Position numbers and translations under genes: made by a program
Shown: positions 31,417 to 39,689 of the stretch, piece by piece
Layout of the letters: each line of letters starts with the position of its first letter
Numbering within the stretch: position 1 is the stretch's first letter
The notes under the pieces: generated by a model
Seen by the model: the letters and a program-made list of their open reading frames with translations, nothing else
What the model was told of the DNA's origin: nothing
Database searches by the model: none
DNA from: Bacillota bacterium
GTDB lineage: Bacteria; Sysuimicrobiota; Sysuimicrobiia; Sysuimicrobiales; Segetimicrobiaceae
Length of the DNA stretch: 64,000 nt
Direction of reading: 5' to 3'
Assembly: GCA_021324255.1 (NCBI GenBank)
Contig: JAJPJL010000063.1
Location: 29,217-93,216, forward strand

Positions 31417-33087
31417 GTGCCGACCCGCGGCGGGATGACCCGCGAACAGCTGCGCTCGCGCGATGCCGCGCAGCAATTGGCGCGGAAGACCGCGGAAATC
31501 TCCGCGCTTCGCACCATCAGCCGCGCCGTCAGCGCCGCCCTCGACCTCGACACGACGCTGACGCTGATCACGCGCACCACGGCGGACGTGATGCGCGTGG
31601 ACAGCTGCTCGATCTATCTCTTGGAATCGCAGGAGTACCTGATCCTCAAGGCCACGACGGGACTGGCCCCCCAGGCCGTGGGCCGCGGGCGCCTGCGCCT
31701 CGGCGAAGGACTGACGGGGCACGCCGCGGCCACCGGCCGCGCCGTCGCGTCCGCGAACGCGCAGGCCGACCCGCGCTTCAAATACGTGCCCGGCACGGAC
31801 GAGAGCCGGTTCCGCTCCCTGCTCGCCGTGCCCCTCACGATGGCCGGCAAGGTGCTCGGCGCGGTCAACGTGCAAACCACCCGCGCGCACGAGTGGGGCG
31901 AGGACGAGATCGAGCTCCTGAGCATCATCGCGGACCTCGCCAGCGGCACGCTGGAGAAGGCGCGGCTGTACGACAGCATGCGGCGCCAGATCATGGAGCT
32001 CCGGACCCTGGCCGAGGTGAGCGAGACGCTCACGTCCCCGCTCTACCTCGAGCAGATCCTCCGCCTGGTCGTGGAGATGGCCGCCCGGGTCTTCGACGCG
32101 CCGCTGTGCACGCTGATGCTCCTGGACGGCAACGAGCTGGTGCTCGCCGCTGCGCACCCCGAGGCGGCGGGGCTCCGGCCGCGCACGACGCTCCGGGTCG
32201 GCGAGGGCATTCCCGGCGAAGCGGCCGCCTCGGGCCAGCCGGCGATGAGCGTGGAGCTCGCGGACGACCCGCGGTTCCGCCGACGCGAAGTCCCGCAGCC
32301 GCCGGCGGTGCGCTCGTTGCTCTCGGTGCCCCTCCGGGTTCGCGACCGCACGCTCGGCGTGATCAACTGCTACACGGCCCGGCGGCATCAGTTCACGGGG
32401 CCCGAAATCAACATGCTGCAGACGCTCGCCAACCAGACCGCGCTGGCGATCGAGAACGCCAGCCTGGTCGTCAAGTCGGCGATGGTGCGCGAGATGCACC
32501 ATCGCGTGAAGAACAATCTCCAGATGATCGCGATGCTGCTCCGGCTGCAGTTGCGCGAGGGCCGTGAGGTGTCGGGACGCGAGGTCCTGACGGAGACGAT
32601 CAACCGGATCCTGAGCATCGCCGCGGTGCACGAGATCCTGGCCGCCGAGGGGCTCCGCCACGTGGCCGTGCGCGAGATCCTGGACCGCGTCGCCCACACG
32701 GTCGCGAACTCGATGGCCCCGCCCGGGTTCGCGCTGGCGGTCCACGTCGGCGGGGACGACGTCAGCCTGCCCAGCCGGCAGGCGACGTCGCTCGCCCTGG
32801 TTGTCAACGAGCTGCTCCAGAACGCGATGGAGCATGCCTTTACCGGGCGCCGGCGCGGGACCGTGCGGATCGCACTCGCGGTCGCCGGCGCGTCGCTGCG
32901 CGTCGACGTGCAGGACGACGGCGTGGGGCTGCCGCCGGACTTCACCCCGGACCGGTCGGGCGATCTCGGGCTCGAGATCGTGCACACGCTGGTGCGGGAC
33001 GACCTCAAGGGCACGATCGCCTTTGCCAACGCGGGCGGCACGCAGGCCGTCATCACGATGCCGCTTCACGCCGGGGACGCCGGATGA
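31417..33087 (+). CDS. GAF-domain sensor histidine kinase, HisKA_2 type
   Basis: Two GAF regions; VREMHHRVKNNLQMIAMLLRLQ phospho-acceptor; NELLQNAMEHAF, DDGVGLPPDF ATPase boxes. Confidence 0.9.
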   Translation: MPTRGGMTREQLRSRDAAQQLARKTAEISALRTISRAVSAALDLDTTLTLITRTTADVMRVDSCSIYLLESQEYLILKATTGLAPQAVGRGRLRLGEGLTGHAAATGRAVASANAQADPRFKYVPGTDESRFRSLLAVPLTMAGKVLGAVNVQTTRAHEWGEDEIELLSIIADLASGTLEKARLYDSMRRQIMELRTLAEVSETLTSPLYLEQILRLVVEMAARVFDAPLCTLMLLDGNELVLAAAHPEAAGLRPRTTLRVGEGIPGEAAASGQPAMSVELADDPRFRRREVPQPPAVRSLLSVPLRVRDRTLGVINCYTARRHQFTGPEINMLQTLANQTALAIENASLVVKSAMVREMHHRVKNNLQMIAMLLRLQLREGREVSGREVLTETINRILSIAAVHEILAAEGLRHVAVREILDRVAHTVANSMAPPGFALAVHVGGDDVSLPSRQATSLALVVNELLQNAMEHAFTGRRRGTVRIALAVAGASLRVDVQDDGVGLPPDFTPDRSGDLGLEIVHTLVRDDLKGTIAFANAGGTQAVITMPLHAGDAG

Positions 33088-34847
33088 CCGAGGCGCTGCG
33101 CATCCTGATCGCCGATGACGAGCCGGTCATCCGGATGGGGCTCCGCACGATGCTGGAGGAGCACGACTACCAGGTCGTCGGGGAGGCCGGGGACGGCGAG
33201 GAGGCCGTCACGCTCGCCGGCAAGCTCGCGCCCGACCTGATCTTCATGGATATCAAGATGCCGGGGCTCGACGGCATCGCCGCGGCGTCGACGATCATGA
33301 CGCGCCAGCCGCGGCCGATCGTGCTCCTCACCGCGTGGAGCGAGCGCGACCTCGTGCAGCGCGCCCAGGAGGCGGGCGTGCTCGCCTACCTCGTCAAGCC
33401 GGTGCGGGAAGCGGAGCTCGTGCCCGTGATCGAGGTGGCGATGGCCCGGTTCGCGGAGTTGCGCGCACTGCAGCAGGAAGTGGGCAACCTCAAGGAGACG
33501 CTCGAGACGCGCAAGCTGGTGGACCGGGCGAAGGGCATCTTGATGCAGCGCGAGGGCATCGACGAGCAGGAGGCGTTCCTCCGGATCCAGCGTCAGAGCC
33601 GCAACACGCGCACGCCGATGCGCGACATCGCGCGCGCGATCCTGGTGTCGGACGAGATGCGGCAACACACGCCGGCCAGGCCCGCGGGCCGCATCGACAT
33701 CCGCACCCCGGCGGACCTCCTGCGCGTGCTGAGCGCGGTGCAGATGCTGCCCGGCGGCGCGGACCACGCCGACCTGGTGGTCTCCGGGGCGGAGCCGCTC
33801 GCCTATCTCCGCTTCAGCCCGGGACTCGACGTCACGCTCGAAGGGTACGTGGCCGCGCGCAGCCCGGAGGGCGAGTACGGGCTCGGCGTGGCGTTCGCCC
33901 TGACGCCGTCGCCGAGGGAGTCCAACGGCTCGGGCAGCGTGGCGTGCGTCATTCAAAACGCGATCCGGCCCGGGACGCTGGACGCCGGCGGCACCGCCCA
34001 CAGCCAGTACGGGCAGCTGCTCGACGAGGTCATCGGGACCCAACAGCGGGTGACGGTGACGGGGCTCCTGCGCCTTCTCCCGGACCACGCGTCCGGCGCG
34101 CACCCGTCGGTGCCGCGCCTGCTCGAGCTCCACCCCGTCCGGAGCGTGCGGACGGAGCGCGGCCTGACGTTCCCGCCGATTCCGCTCGACGCCCCGGGCG
34201 GCGCCGAGTGGACGCAGGTGGAGAGCGTGCACGCGATGCCGTTTCCGGACTTCCAGCCGTCCACGCGCGTGGCGTTTACCGGCGGCACCATGACGTTCCG
34301 CCATGCGCCCGTCACGGAGACCGCGTACGTGTACATGACCGGCCAGTTCTACGGTGGACGCAGCCGGTTCGTGGAGGGGAAGCCGTTTCTGTTCGCGTTC
34401 GGCGACGCCGCGCGGCGCATGCGGCTCACGGCCGTGACGATTCCCGACACGCCGGCGTACGACACCGTGCGGCGCTGGCTCTCCACGCCGCCGACCGGGC
34501 CGTTGACGATCGTGGGGCTGCGCGCCCTGCACCTCCCGGCCCTGTTCGCGCCAGGCGGCGGCAGGATCGAGGTGTTTTTGTGCCCCGTGTTCCGGATCCT
34601 GCCGGGGGCCGTCAAGGGCGCGGCCGTGCCGGCGCCGACGGCGCGGTTCGAGCTGGTGCCGGTCGGCGGACCGCCCGCCGAACCCGTACTCCCGCGCCGC
34701 GCGTCGGCAAAGGCTTCGGGGGCCGCGCCGCGGAAATCCGCGCGCCCGAAGCGATCGGCGCCGGGCAAACGGCGCGCGAAGCCGTCCGCCCGGCCCTCCG
34801 GGAAACGCACGGCCGCGTCGTCCGGCGCGCGCCGCAGAGCCCGGTAA
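33084..34847 (+). CDS. REC-ANTAR response regulator with ~370-aa unassigned C-terminal extension and basic tail
   Basis: REC (LIADDEPVIRMGLR, FMDIKMPGLDG, KPV); ANTAR (LVDRAKGILMQREGIDEQEAFLRIQRQSRNTRTPMRDIARAIL); C-terminal tail rich in K/R/S/P. Confidence 0.9.
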   Translation: MTEALRILIADDEPVIRMGLRTMLEEHDYQVVGEAGDGEEAVTLAGKLAPDLIFMDIKMPGLDGIAAASTIMTRQPRPIVLLTAWSERDLVQRAQEAGVLAYLVKPVREAELVPVIEVAMARFAELRALQQEVGNLKETLETRKLVDRAKGILMQREGIDEQEAFLRIQRQSRNTRTPMRDIARAILVSDEMRQHTPARPAGRIDIRTPADLLRVLSAVQMLPGGADHADLVVSGAEPLAYLRFSPGLDVTLEGYVAARSPEGEYGLGVAFALTPSPRESNGSGSVACVIQNAIRPGTLDAGGTAHSQYGQLLDEVIGTQQRVTVTGLLRLLPDHASGAHPSVPRLLELHPVRSVRTERGLTFPPIPLDAPGGAEWTQVESVHAMPFPDFQPSTRVAFTGGTMTFRHAPVTETAYVYMTGQFYGGRSRFVEGKPFLFAFGDAARRMRLTAVTIPDTPAYDTVRRWLSTPPTGPLTIVGLRALHLPALFAPGGGRIEVFLCPVFRILPGAVKGAAVPAPTARFELVPVGGPPAEPVLPRRASAKASGAAPRKSARPKRSAPGKRRAKPSARPSGKRTAASSGARRRAR

Positions 34848-34871: not shown

Positions 34872-34901
34872 TTGACGGCGGGGTGCCCACCGTGGTATAA
34901 G
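34872..34901 (+). promoter_or_regulatory. glnA promoter
   Basis: TTGACG - 18 nt - TATAAG. Confidence 0.65.
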
Positions 34902-34908
34902 ATACGCA

Positions 34909-34942
34909 GGTACTAAGATGTACCGAGGGCCTGGACGCCCTC
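34909..34942 (+). ncRNA. Candidate ANTAR-type dual-hairpin leader of glnA
   Basis: P1 GGTAC-TAAGAT-GTACC (34909-34924), P2 GAGGGC-CTGGAC-GCCCTC (34925-34942); both hexaloops with G at position 4; P2 3' arm overlaps terminator 5' arm. Confidence 0.5.
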
Positions 34943-34972
34943 CGAGCGGATGCTCGGAGGGCGTTTTTCTTT
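34936..34972 (+). terminator. Intrinsic terminator in glnA leader
   Basis: CGCCCTCCGAGC-GGAT-GCTCGGAGGGCG followed by TTTTTCTTT. Confidence 0.85.
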
Positions 34973-35022: not shown

Positions 35023-36465
35023 ATGGCCGGCAAGGACATGACTGCGCAGGACGTGATCGCCTACATCAAGGATCGCGGCATCAAGATGGTCGATCTCAAG
35101 TTCGTGGATGTCCCCGGCACGTGGCAGCACGCGACGATTCCGGCCAGCCAGGTCGACGACAAGACGTTCAAGCGGGGCATCGGGTTCGACGGCAGCAGCA
35201 TCCGCGGTTTCCAGGCGATCGAAGAGAGCGACATGATCCTGATGCCCGATCCGGCCACGGCGCGCCCCGACCCGTTCACCGAGATCCCGACGCTCTCGAT
35301 CATCTGCAACGTCTTCGATCCGTCGACCGGCAAGCCGTATACCCGCGACCCCCGGCACGTGGCGCAAAAGGCGGAAGACTACCTGAGGCAGTCCGGCGTC
35401 GCCGACACGAGCTACTGGGGACCCGAGGCGGAGTTCTTCGTCTTCAGCAACGTGCAGTACGAAGTGCTGCCGCACCGGGCGGGATACAGCATAGACTCGC
35501 CCGAGGGCATCTGGAACACCGGCCAGCCGGGGCTGGGGCACCGGATCCGCTCCAAGGAAGGCTACTTCCCGGTCGCGCCGGCGGACACGCTGCTGGATCT
35601 GCGCAGCGAGATGGCGCTGCAGATGGAATCCTGGGGCATCGAGGTGGAGATGCAGCACCACGAGGTCGCGTCGGCGGGGCAGTGCGAGATCGACATCAAG
35701 TACAACACGCTCGCCCGGATGGCCGACAGCCTCATGAGCTACAAGTACATCGTGAAGAACGTCGCGCGCCGTCACGGGATGACCGCGACGTTCATGCCGA
35801 AGCCGCTGTTCGGCGACAACGGGACCGGGATGCACGTGCACCAGAGCCTCTGGAAGGGCGGCGCCAATCTCTTCTACAGCGAGGGCGGCTACGCCGAATT
35901 GAGTACGGAGGCGCTCCACTACATCGGCGGGCTCCTGACGCACGTCAACGCGCTGCTCGCGCTCTGCGCGTGCACCACGAACTCGTACCGGCGGCTGGTG
36001 CCGCACTTCGAGGCCCCGGTGAACATCGCGTTCAGCAAGCGCAACCGAAGCGCGGCGGTGCGCATCCCGATGTACTTCACGGGGCCGGCCGCGGCGTCCA
36101 GCAAGCGCATCGAGTTCCGTTGCCCCGACGCCACCTGCAATCCGTACCTGGCCTTCGCCGCGATGCTCATGGCCGGTCTCGACGGCGTGAAGCGCAAGAT
36201 CGATCCCACGAAGGCGGGGTTCGGACCGCTCGACAAGAACATCTACGAGTTGCCGGCCGAGGACGCCGCGAAGATCAAGAGCGTGCCGGGCTCGCTCGAC
36301 GCGTCGCTGGCGGCGCTGGAGGCCGACCACGAGTTCCTGCTGGAAGGCGACGTCTTTACCCGCGATCTCCTCGACACGTGGATCGATTACAAGCGCACGC
36401 GCGAGGTGCAGGAAGTCAACATCCGTCCGGTGCCCCACGAGTTCTACCTGTACTACGACGTGTAG
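35023..36465 (+). CDS. glnA: Type I glutamine synthetase
   Basis: KFVDVPGTWQH, GFDGSSIRGFQAIEESDM, GTGMHVHQSLWKGG, NRSAAVRIP. Confidence 0.95.
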   Translation: MAGKDMTAQDVIAYIKDRGIKMVDLKFVDVPGTWQHATIPASQVDDKTFKRGIGFDGSSIRGFQAIEESDMILMPDPATARPDPFTEIPTLSIICNVFDPSTGKPYTRDPRHVAQKAEDYLRQSGVADTSYWGPEAEFFVFSNVQYEVLPHRAGYSIDSPEGIWNTGQPGLGHRIRSKEGYFPVAPADTLLDLRSEMALQMESWGIEVEMQHHEVASAGQCEIDIKYNTLARMADSLMSYKYIVKNVARRHGMTATFMPKPLFGDNGTGMHVHQSLWKGGANLFYSEGGYAELSTEALHYIGGLLTHVNALLALCACTTNSYRRLVPHFEAPVNIAFSKRNRSAAVRIPMYFTGPAAASSKRIEFRCPDATCNPYLAFAAMLMAGLDGVKRKIDPTKAGFGPLDKNIYELPAEDAAKIKSVPGSLDASLAALEADHEFLLEGDVFTRDLLDTWIDYKRTREVQEVNIRPVPHEFYLYYDV

Positions 36466-36555: not shown

Positions 36556-37767
36556 CTACACTCGGAGCCGCGACGGCTCCGTGCGCTCCACGTCCACGTC
36601 ACGGACGCCGTGGAACCGGGCAAATGCATCCAGGCCGGCCGCGAGTCTTCGGCGCAACTCACGGGTCACCGCCACATCCGGCTCGAGGTGCAGCAGGCGG
36701 ATGACGAGGCGCCCGCGGGCGCGGTCCAGGCGCGGGTCGATCCGGCCGACGAGGCGCGAGCCGACGAGGATCGGCATGGCGTAGTGCCCGTACCGCCGCC
36801 GCGTGACCGGAAGATATTGCTCCCACGAGTACCGAAAGCCGAACACGTCGGCGACCCGCTCGCGGCGCCAGAGAAGATTGTCAAGCGGCGGCAAGAAGCG
36901 TACGCCCGCGCGATCGACGGCGTCGTCCTGCGCCGCGCGGTCCCACCGGCGGAGCGCCGGGATGTCCTCGGCCAGGGCAAAATACCGCCGCGACACGCCG
37001 GGGATCTGGAGCGGGACGAGCGTCCCCGCACGCAGCCGCCGGCGGATCGCCGCGGCGCGTCCCGCGGCGCCGAGCGCGCGCCAGCCGAACCTGGCGTCCG
37101 ATCCGTCGGCGATGCGATACGCGCGGAGGTACATGTCGAGAAGCCCCTCGTCGGCGTCCTCCGTCGCAATCGCCCCGGCGTCGCGAAGCAGAGACGCCGG
37201 GATGGCGCGCTCGGGGAGATCGAAGGACCGCTCGGCGCCGTCGCGCCGGGCGACCACGAGCGCGCCCGTGCGGAACAGCAGCGTGAGCGCGTGCGACGTC
37301 GCCTTGGTGCGGGCCTCGGCGCCGTCCCAGTAACCCCGCAGGCGCTCGGGAGACACGAACTCGCGCGCCGCCAGCGGACCGCCGGCCTCGAGCGCGGCGA
37401 ACATCCGGCGCACAATCGGCCGGAGCGGCCGCAACTCGGCGGCGAGCCGCCGCCGGAAGCGCCGCCGCGTGCCCTCGAACAGCGGGAACCGCTCGATGGG
37501 CAGGATGCACGCGGCATTGGCCCAGTATTCGAACACCGCGCCCTGCCCGCGGAGCACCTCCAGGCTGCGCGGGTCGTAACCCGGAACGCGCGCGGCGAGC
37601 ACCAGGTGCTGATTGCGCTCGACGACGGCCACCGGGTCGAGCTGCACGCACTCCAGCCGCCGGATCGCGACGAGCGCGGCCGGGGCCCCGGTACCCGCCG
37701 GCCACTCCCGGGCGGCGCCGAGCCCTTGCCGCGAGAGCAGAAACCTGGCCACCCCGGACGGGCTCAC
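36556..37767 (-). CDS. Winged-helix (HTH_42, YcaQ-like) DNA-binding / DNA glycosylase-family protein
   Basis: ARFLLSRQGL, RRLECVQLDPVAVVERNQHLVLAARVPGY, VFEYWANAACILPIE. Confidence 0.85.
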   Translation of the reverse strand: MSPSGVARFLLSRQGLGAAREWPAGTGAPAALVAIRRLECVQLDPVAVVERNQHLVLAARVPGYDPRSLEVLRGQGAVFEYWANAACILPIERFPLFEGTRRRFRRRLAAELRPLRPIVRRMFAALEAGGPLAAREFVSPERLRGYWDGAEARTKATSHALTLLFRTGALVVARRDGAERSFDLPERAIPASLLRDAGAIATEDADEGLLDMYLRAYRIADGSDARFGWRALGAAGRAAAIRRRLRAGTLVPLQIPGVSRRYFALAEDIPALRRWDRAAQDDAVDRAGVRFLPPLDNLLWRRERVADVFGFRYSWEQYLPVTRRRYGHYAMPILVGSRLVGRIDPRLDRARGRLVIRLLHLEPDVAVTRELRRRLAAGLDAFARFHGVRDVDVERTEPSRLRV

Positions 37768-37922
37768 GACCAACGGCGCGCGCACAGAACGGCCGATTCC
37801 ATGGCGGCAAGAGCGCTTCCTCGTCGCGATGCGCGTCCACGCGCCCCGGCCGCCGCGGGAACGGACACGGGACGGTGTATAATGAACGCGGGCGGAGCGC
37901 GCCGTCGCTCCGGGAGGACCGC

Positions 37923-39689
37923 ATGGCACCGCGATTCCGGGTCGCGATGGCCCAAATCAATACGACCGTCGGGGATTTCGACGGCAACACGCGCAAGATC
38001 ATTGCGCGCTTGGAGGAAGCCCAGGCGCTCGGCGCCGACGTGGTCTCGTTCCCCGAGCTCGCCGTCCCCGGGTATCCGCCCGAGGACCTGCTCATCAAAA
38101 CCGACTTCATCGACGAGAATCTTCGCTGCCTCGAGGAGATCGCCCGGCACGCGGCCGAGACGGCCGCGGTCGTGGGCTTTGCGGATTCCGGCGACCATCT
38201 GTACAACGCCGCGGGCGTGCTGTACCAGGGCCGCATCGCCGGCGTCTACCGCAAGATGCGCCTGCCGAACTACGGCGTGTTCGACGAGAAGCGGTATTTC
38301 CAGCCCGGGAGCGACGCGCCGGTCTACGTCATCCACGGCGTGCCCGTCGGCGTCTCCATCTGCGAGGATGTCTGGGCGCCGGGCGGCCCGCTGCTGGCCC
38401 AGGCGCTCGCCGGCGCACTGATCGCCGTCAACATCAACGGATCCCCGTACTCCGCGGGCAAGTGGCGCGTCCGGGAGGAGATGCTGCGGACGCGCGCCCG
38501 CGACTACGCGATCGCGCTGGCCTACAACAATCTCGTCGGCGGGCAGGACGAGCTCGTCTTCGACGGACTGGGCGTGGTCGTCGACCCGGCCGGGACGGTC
38601 GTGGCCCGCGGACCCGCGTTCGAAGAAGCGCTCGTCGTCGCGGACATCGACGTCGATGCCATCCGCAGCATTCGCCGCTACAATCCGATCCGCACGACGG
38701 ACGCCCTGCGCGACGAAGGGATCCGGGCGCCGAGCTATACGCTCGCCACCGCCGGAACGCCGGCGTCGCGGCCGCCGCTGGGACGGGCCCCGCTGCTCGC
38801 GCCGCCGGACGATCTCGAGGAAGTGTACCGGGCGCTCGTCCTCGGCACGCGGGACTACGTCCGCAAGAATGGATTTCGCGACGTGTTGGTGGGGCTGAGC
38901 GGCGGCGTCGATTCTTCCCTCGTCGCGTGCATCGCGGCGGATGCGCTCGGCCCCGAGGCCGTACACGGCGTGCTGATGCCGTCGCGGTTTACGTCCGATG
39001 AGAGCCGGCGATACGCGTCGGCGCTCGGCGGGGCGCTCGGGATCCGCCTGCTCGATCTCCCGATCGACCCGATCGTGACCGGCTATGAGACCGCCCTCGC
39101 CGGCGCGTTCCACGGGCGTGCGCGCGATATCACCGAGGAGAACCTGCAGGCCAGAACGCGCGGGAACCTCTTGATGGCCCTCTCCAACAAGTTCGGGTGG
39201 CTCGTGCTGACGACCGGCAACAAGAGCGAGATGAGCGTCGGTTATGCGACGCTGTACGGCGACATGGCCGGCGGGTTCGCGGTCCTCAAGGACGTGCCAA
39301 AGACCCTCCTGTATCGCTTGGCGCGCTGGCGGAACGCGCAGGCAGGACGCGACCTTGTGCCCCAGGGCGTGATCGACCGCCCGCCCACCGCGGAATTGCG
39401 CGAGCTCCAAACCGATCAGGACAGCCTGCCGTCGTACGACGTGCTCGACCAGATCCTGGAGCGCTACGTCCAGGAGGACCGCTCGGCGGCCGAGATCGTG
39501 CACGACGGGTTCGACCCCGAGATCGTCGCGCGGGTCATCGCGATGGTGGACCGCAGCGAGTACAAGCGCCGCCAGGCGCCGCCGGGCGTCAAGATCACGC
39601 CGAAAGCATTCGGCAAAGACCGGCGGCTCCCGATCACGAACCGCTACCGAGGACGACGCGCCCCGGCCGCTCCGCCGCGCGCGCCCTAA
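37923..39689 (+). CDS. nadE: Glutamine-dependent NAD+ synthase
   Basis: N-terminal nitrilase domain (VGVSICEDVW) and NAD synthase SGGVDSSLVACIAADALG, TGNKSEMSVGYATLYGDMAGG. Confidence 0.93.
   Translation: MAPRFRVAMAQINTTVGDFDGNTRKIIARLEEAQALGADVVSFPELAVPGYPPEDLLIKTDFIDENLRCLEEIARHAAETAAVVGFADSGDHLYNAAGVLYQGRIAGVYRKMRLPNYGVFDEKRYFQPGSDAPVYVIHGVPVGVSICEDVWAPGGPLLAQALAGALIAVNINGSPYSAGKWRVREEMLRTRARDYAIALAYNNLVGGQDELVFDGLGVVVDPAGTVVARGPAFEEALVVADIDVDAIRSIRRYNPIRTTDALRDEGIRAPSYTLATAGTPASRPPLGRAPLLAPPDDLEEVYRALVLGTRDYVRKNGFRDVLVGLSGGVDSSLVACIAADALGPEAVHGVLMPSRFTSDESRRYASALGGALGIRLLDLPIDPIVTGYETALAGAFHGRARDITEENLQARTRGNLLMALSNKFGWLVLTTGNKSEMSVGYATLYGDMAGGFAVLKDVPKTLLYRLARWRNAQAGRDLVPQGVIDRPPTAELRELQTDQDSLPSYDVLDQILERYVQEDRSAAEIVHDGFDPEIVARVIAMVDRSEYKRRQAPPGVKITPKAFGKDRRLPITNRYRGRRAPAAPPRAP

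Follow-up and report, generated by a model that had tools for sequence, protein, structure and literature searches.

The window analysed here, a stretch of 64,000 nucleotides, contains a response regulator gene at 33084..34847 (+), which begins with an ATG codon and encodes 587 amino acids in one uninterrupted ORF. The predicted product comprises a REC domain (residues 7-116, 33102..33431, +; Pfam PF00072, 6.2e-28), an ANTAR domain (residues 135-187, 33486..33644, +; PF03861, 1.1e-21), which is the sole ANTAR match in its own genome, a conserved C-terminal module and a basic tail. The scores of 97.6 bits for REC and 76.8 bits for ANTAR lie above the curated Pfam cut-offs (30.2 and 27.3, respectively) and identify the protein as a REC-ANTAR regulator. 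The stop codon of the preceding gene, encoding a GAF-GAF-HisKA_2-HATPase histidine kinase (31417..33087, +; assigned from the ORF and Pfam), overlaps the start codon of the regulator gene. Since this kinase is also found beside the regulator in the other genomes of the family, and at numerous loci in other families too, as is characteristic of cognate kinases of REC-ANTAR regulators, we presume it to be the partner. The presumed target is located downstream, i.e. glnA, encoding a type I glutamine synthetase (35023..36465, +; TIGR00653, 626.8 bits; PF00120, PF03951), which in the family genomes lies directly downstream of the regulator gene or within a few kilobases of it wherever the contig permits a check. 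Beyond glnA, a convergent gene encodes an AlkZ-like DNA glycosylase (36556-37929, -; PF06224, 186.7 bits).

The regulator runs 400 residues beyond the ANTAR domain, whereas the usual REC-ANTAR protein stops shortly after it; ending there is the usual architecture and not a requirement for membership of the ANTAR domain family. The extra part begins at residue 193 and consists of 395 amino acids, of which 342 form the conserved module (residues 193-534, 33660..34685, +) and about 55 the tail (residues 533-587, 34680..34844, +), which is rich in Lys, Arg, Ala, Pro and Ser and probably disordered. An earlier sequence-only reading had described a REC-ANTAR regulator with a long in-frame C-terminal addition, which is confirmed by the ORF and the Pfam matches, and the peptides that it quoted as well as the K/R tail are found in the translation as written. 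The start that it gave, 33660, corresponds to residue 193, where the extra part begins, and not to the start of the gene at 33084, and its estimate of about 370 amino acids for the extra part was too low. No match beyond residue 187 was obtained with Pfam, NCBIfam or PHROGs up to an E-value of 10, and scanning the modules of the relatives individually against Pfam yielded isolated chance-level matches only.

The module was found in all 12 examined genomes of the window's family, which represent four genera, once per genome; in one fragmentary genome it is split over two contigs. This family is probably Segetimicrobiaceae of the phylum Sysuimicrobiota (compare PMC11604079). A module at a credible level was detected in none of the 31 other genomes of the phylum, and no relatives were found in the rest of the 386-genome sample, which reaches other phyla, or in phages, plasmids, viral contigs and defence libraries. 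An SduA match in the defence libraries covers the REC region and was rejected as a module relative. The orthologous REC-ANTAR proteins that were examined from other families of the phylum have a length of 191-202 amino acids and end 0-15 residues past ANTAR or little more, in line with the earlier statement that such regulators normally end soon after this domain. These short orthologues are 48-69% identical over REC-ANTAR, and most of them adjoin the same type of kinase. In a maximum-likelihood tree, which took in ten long forms, the long forms constitute one clade (support 99/97), and the simplest reading is that the extension was gained once, by addition onto a normal REC-ANTAR protein.

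Over residues 193-534, the relatives share 65-98% identity with the window sequence, and dN/dS ratios of both module halves range from 0.01 to 0.31 (versus the window sequence), from which we conclude that the module evolves under purifying selection. The extension could have been regarded as the product of neutral read-through or of an assembly fusion, or as what is left of a decaying gene, as might be suggested by its lack of a match in any family library. However, the same fusion is stop-free in 12 genomes of four genera, the dN/dS ratios are far below 1 in both halves and the long forms fall into one clade, so that the comparative data already refute this explanation and leave it next to no probability. 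The sequence-only reading had proposed to follow the phylogenetic spread of the fusion, which turned out to be lineage-specific, and had named a known unrelated domain or an assembly fusion as findings that would speak against it. The former was not found, and the latter is excluded by the occurrence in every one of the family genomes.

The first half of the module (residues 234-364, 33783..34175, +) probably adopts an OB fold, as suggested by three weak, concordant lines of evidence, i.e. profile matches to PDB sequences, AlphaFold and Foldseek. A profile of 11 relatives compared with all PDB sequences gave five matches up to an E-value of 10, all of which are MCM proteins (best E 0.0095) and share one matched stretch, the terminal part of the MCM N-terminal region, to which the pattern RP..L..G / LLDE / RV.VTG.LR / LLE of the first half aligns. 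As controls, a column-shuffled profile drew one PDB match (E 9e-5 over the entire chain, none of its individual stretches passing) and a reversed profile drew none. None of the 11 module members matches the Pfam MCM models, and the module is thus not assigned to the MCM_OB family. AlphaFold modelled the first half alone with a pLDDT of 57 and a pTM of 0.53 in the order strand-strand-strand-helix-strand-strand; the element order of this low-confidence model fits an OB fold, defined as a barrel of five strands in which a helix is placed between the third and the fourth. The best Foldseek matches of this model were mostly OB folds (SSBs, PriB, Cdc13 OB2, asparaginyl-tRNA synthetase), with E-values from 0.042 upward and a probability of up to 0.66. 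When the whole module was modelled, as the sequence-only reading had proposed for the extra part, the pLDDT reached 33, which we attribute to relatives that are too few and too similar; this poor model drew the same kind of Foldseek matches, which are not independent of the evidence from the first half. The earlier guess of an OB-like segment at HPSVPRLLELHPV gains some weak support, since this stretch represents the last strand of the predicted fold.

The predicted order of strands and helix is thus like that of the OB domains of the MCM N-terminal region, SSB, PriB and AsnRS/AspRS, but the similarity borders significance and the module occurs without a replication or translation context. Relatives of MCM for a profile-profile test were found neither in plasmids nor in phages or viral contigs. 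A similarity to DnaE, obtained with the module profile in three genomes (E 0.001-0.036), was dropped as evidence for an OB fold; the match does not concern the OB domain, because PF01336 matches this ORF only from about 80 amino acids further on. The second half of the module (residues 366-533, 34179..34682, +) is conserved and had no credible match in profile searches, and a tandem OB arrangement, in which it would repeat the first half, was not supported by the profile-profile score of 11.5 versus a shuffled mean of 12.2.

In terms of charge, the module changes from an acidic first half (pI 4.7-6.1) to a neutral to basic second half (pI 7.0-9.9), and the tail that follows is strongly basic (pI 12). 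In nine genomes the last approximately 55 residues contain 27-43% K+R and 0-6% D+E; sequence and length of the tail drift among relatives, whereas its composition stays. The OB fold of the first half need not bind nucleic acid, because this half is acidic, and it is the basic second half together with the tail that speaks for a nucleic-acid affinity of the extension.

The region between the regulator gene and glnA contains a likely promoter (TTGACG - 18 bases - TATAAG, 34872..34901, +), with identically placed TTGAC and TATAA-like boxes in the relatives, followed by two leader hairpins and an intrinsic terminator. Hairpin P1 (GGTAC-TAAGAT-GTACC, 34909..34924, +) and hairpin P2, the candidate antiterminator (GAGGGC-CTGGAC-GCCCTC, 34925..34942, +), each expose a hexaloop with G at position 4. 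The terminator (34937..34971, +) consists of a stem at 34937-34962 and a T tract and shares the 3' arm of P2, and the two structures are therefore mutually exclusive. P2 and the overlapping terminator precede glnA in all 12 family genomes, which provides the exclusion expected of ANTAR antitermination. P1 is clear in 7 of the 12, partial in 1 and degenerate in 4, the last five all belonging to one genus (g2). In this genus, four of the five genomes (L095, L098, L100, L102) have a degenerate P1 but retain P2 and the terminator.

Covariation is strong in the terminator stem, with 97.4% of cells paired and 0 of 500 shuffles as high. It is lower for P1+P2, with 85% of cells paired; here 19 of the 500 shuffles did as well, and slid versions reached 50% or less. 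By itself, the pattern GGGCNNNGRYGCCC carries no statistical significance, with 1 occurrence in the window versus 1.63 expected, and the case for P2 rests on its position, its overlap with the terminator and its conservation among genomes. The hexaloops of the window, UAAGAU in P1 and CUGGAC in P2, keep G4 and lack A1. Many, although not all, glnA leaders of other families contain a similar P2, in which the loop is CNNGRC. The glnA leaders L151-L180 are mostly without A1; some leaders of family f2 show a possible P1 loop with A1 (AUAGAU). A covariance model built from the family leaders identified the glnA leader as the single strong site of each family genome and weaker sites elsewhere, several lying close to glnA or ANTAR genes; such weak matches may be mere terminators, because the model includes terminator columns. 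A sub-threshold match to an antisense RNA, the sole Rfam match over the leader hairpins, was judged to be due to chance.

The arrangement resembles the EutV-type REC-ANTAR antiterminators in the order of REC and ANTAR, the adjoining cognate kinase and the leader hexaloop hairpins overlapping an intrinsic terminator. In EutV antitermination, dual hexaloop hairpins are used, the second one of which excludes the terminator (PMC3369931), and according to the crystal structure of EutV, G4 of the hexaloop is the only base-specific contact (PMC8934654). EutV ends after ANTAR (PMC8934654), and ANTAR has been described as the C-terminal domain with the inputs located in front of it (PMC8934654, PMC3369936). 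In contrast, the regulator described here has 395 further residues, and its hexaloops keep G4 but are mostly without A1 of the published consensus. ANTAR-target leaders in front of glutamine synthetase genes were already mentioned (PMC3369936) and share the nitrogen-assimilation target and the leader with a terminator; the leaders of the present study differ in that they stem from another phylum, carry the P2 loop CNNGRC and have a degenerate P1 in part of one genus. From this we conclude that the antitermination system is of a type already known, within which the REC-ANTAR-extension architecture forms a novel variation. In the titles and abstracts of the open-access literature we found no ANTAR protein with an OB fold or a C-terminal extension. 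The unusual layout noticed in the sequence-only reading is real and lineage-specific.

Based on these comparative data, kinase-dependent antitermination of glnA is most likely. The GAF-HisKA_2 kinase would phosphorylate the REC domain at Asp56, the activated ANTAR dimer would bind the hexaloop hairpins of the nascent glnA leader, and by holding P2 it would exclude the terminator so that glnA is transcribed. Most likely, the extension adds nucleic-acid affinity or a contact to the transcription complex; we infer that it tethers the regulator to nascent RNA or to this complex and in this way retains it at the short-lived leader. The same leader type is apparently also served by orthologues that are short and lack an extension, which is therefore not needed for antitermination as such. 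To this combined reading, i.e. a kinase-activated ANTAR antiterminator of glnA with a once-gained extension as a nucleic-acid or transcription-complex tether, we assign a probability of roughly 45%. The degenerate P1 in four of five genomes of genus g2 and the hexaloops that mostly lack A1 are points against it. A more specific version, in which the protein has two nucleic-acid-engaging outputs, with ANTAR reading the hexaloop and an OB/basic C-terminal arm, which arose once in one family, holding nascent RNA or RNA polymerase, is distinctly more tentative.

Alternatively, the extension could be a protein-protein interface. OB folds often act as protein interfaces, and the acidic OB-like half as well as the restriction of the extension to one family, as is often the case for partner contacts, would suit an interface for a protein such as RNA polymerase, NusA, glutamine synthetase or a PII-type protein that does not touch RNA. 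The K/R-rich tail of 55 residues, however, suggests polyanion binding, and we regard a pure protein interface as less likely than the tether. Even less likely is a sensory or effector domain binding a nitrogen-status metabolite (glutamine, 2-oxoglutarate or a nucleotide), which would gate the ANTAR output as a second input besides phosphorylation. Feedback is plausible with glnA as the target, the module shows strong conservation, including numerous invariant positions, and its OB-like half is acidic rather than basic; but the extension has no similarity to any ligand-binding family, ligand sensing would leave the basic tail unexplained, and characterised ANTAR proteins have their signal domains before ANTAR (PMC3369936). 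The built-in sensor or glutamine-binding role considered in the sequence-only reading thus found no supporting evidence. The conserved lineage-restricted addition, the natural short orthologues and the defined adjoining leader together represent a clean natural experiment on the factors that limit ANTAR antitermination. Moreover, the leaders suggest that glutamine synthetase is widely controlled at the level of transcription termination in this soil phylum, which has been little studied so far.

Besides the glnA leader, a second, weaker match to the leader model (E 7e-5) was found in the window's own genome at L248:2172-2235 (G000:C18:11671-11734), and it is kept in the sister genome (L249:1930-1992). 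This site precedes a gene for an arsinothricin N-acetyltransferase of the ArsN1 family (NF040503, 220 bits), with a glutamine-synthetase-like gene nearby. As glutamine synthetase is inhibited by arsinothricin-type compounds, the ArsN1-family gene may share the glnA regulon. Of the two hairpins, P2 alone is recognisable at this site, which might also be an ordinary terminator. Two family genomes (L253:1596-2306, L254:2145-2210) encode a second, short REC-ANTAR protein, whose gene is followed by a PP2C-like phosphatase gene. This short REC-ANTAR gene has its own leader, in which GGGC-CGAGAC-GCCC is located before a terminator, and might be self-regulated via this leader.
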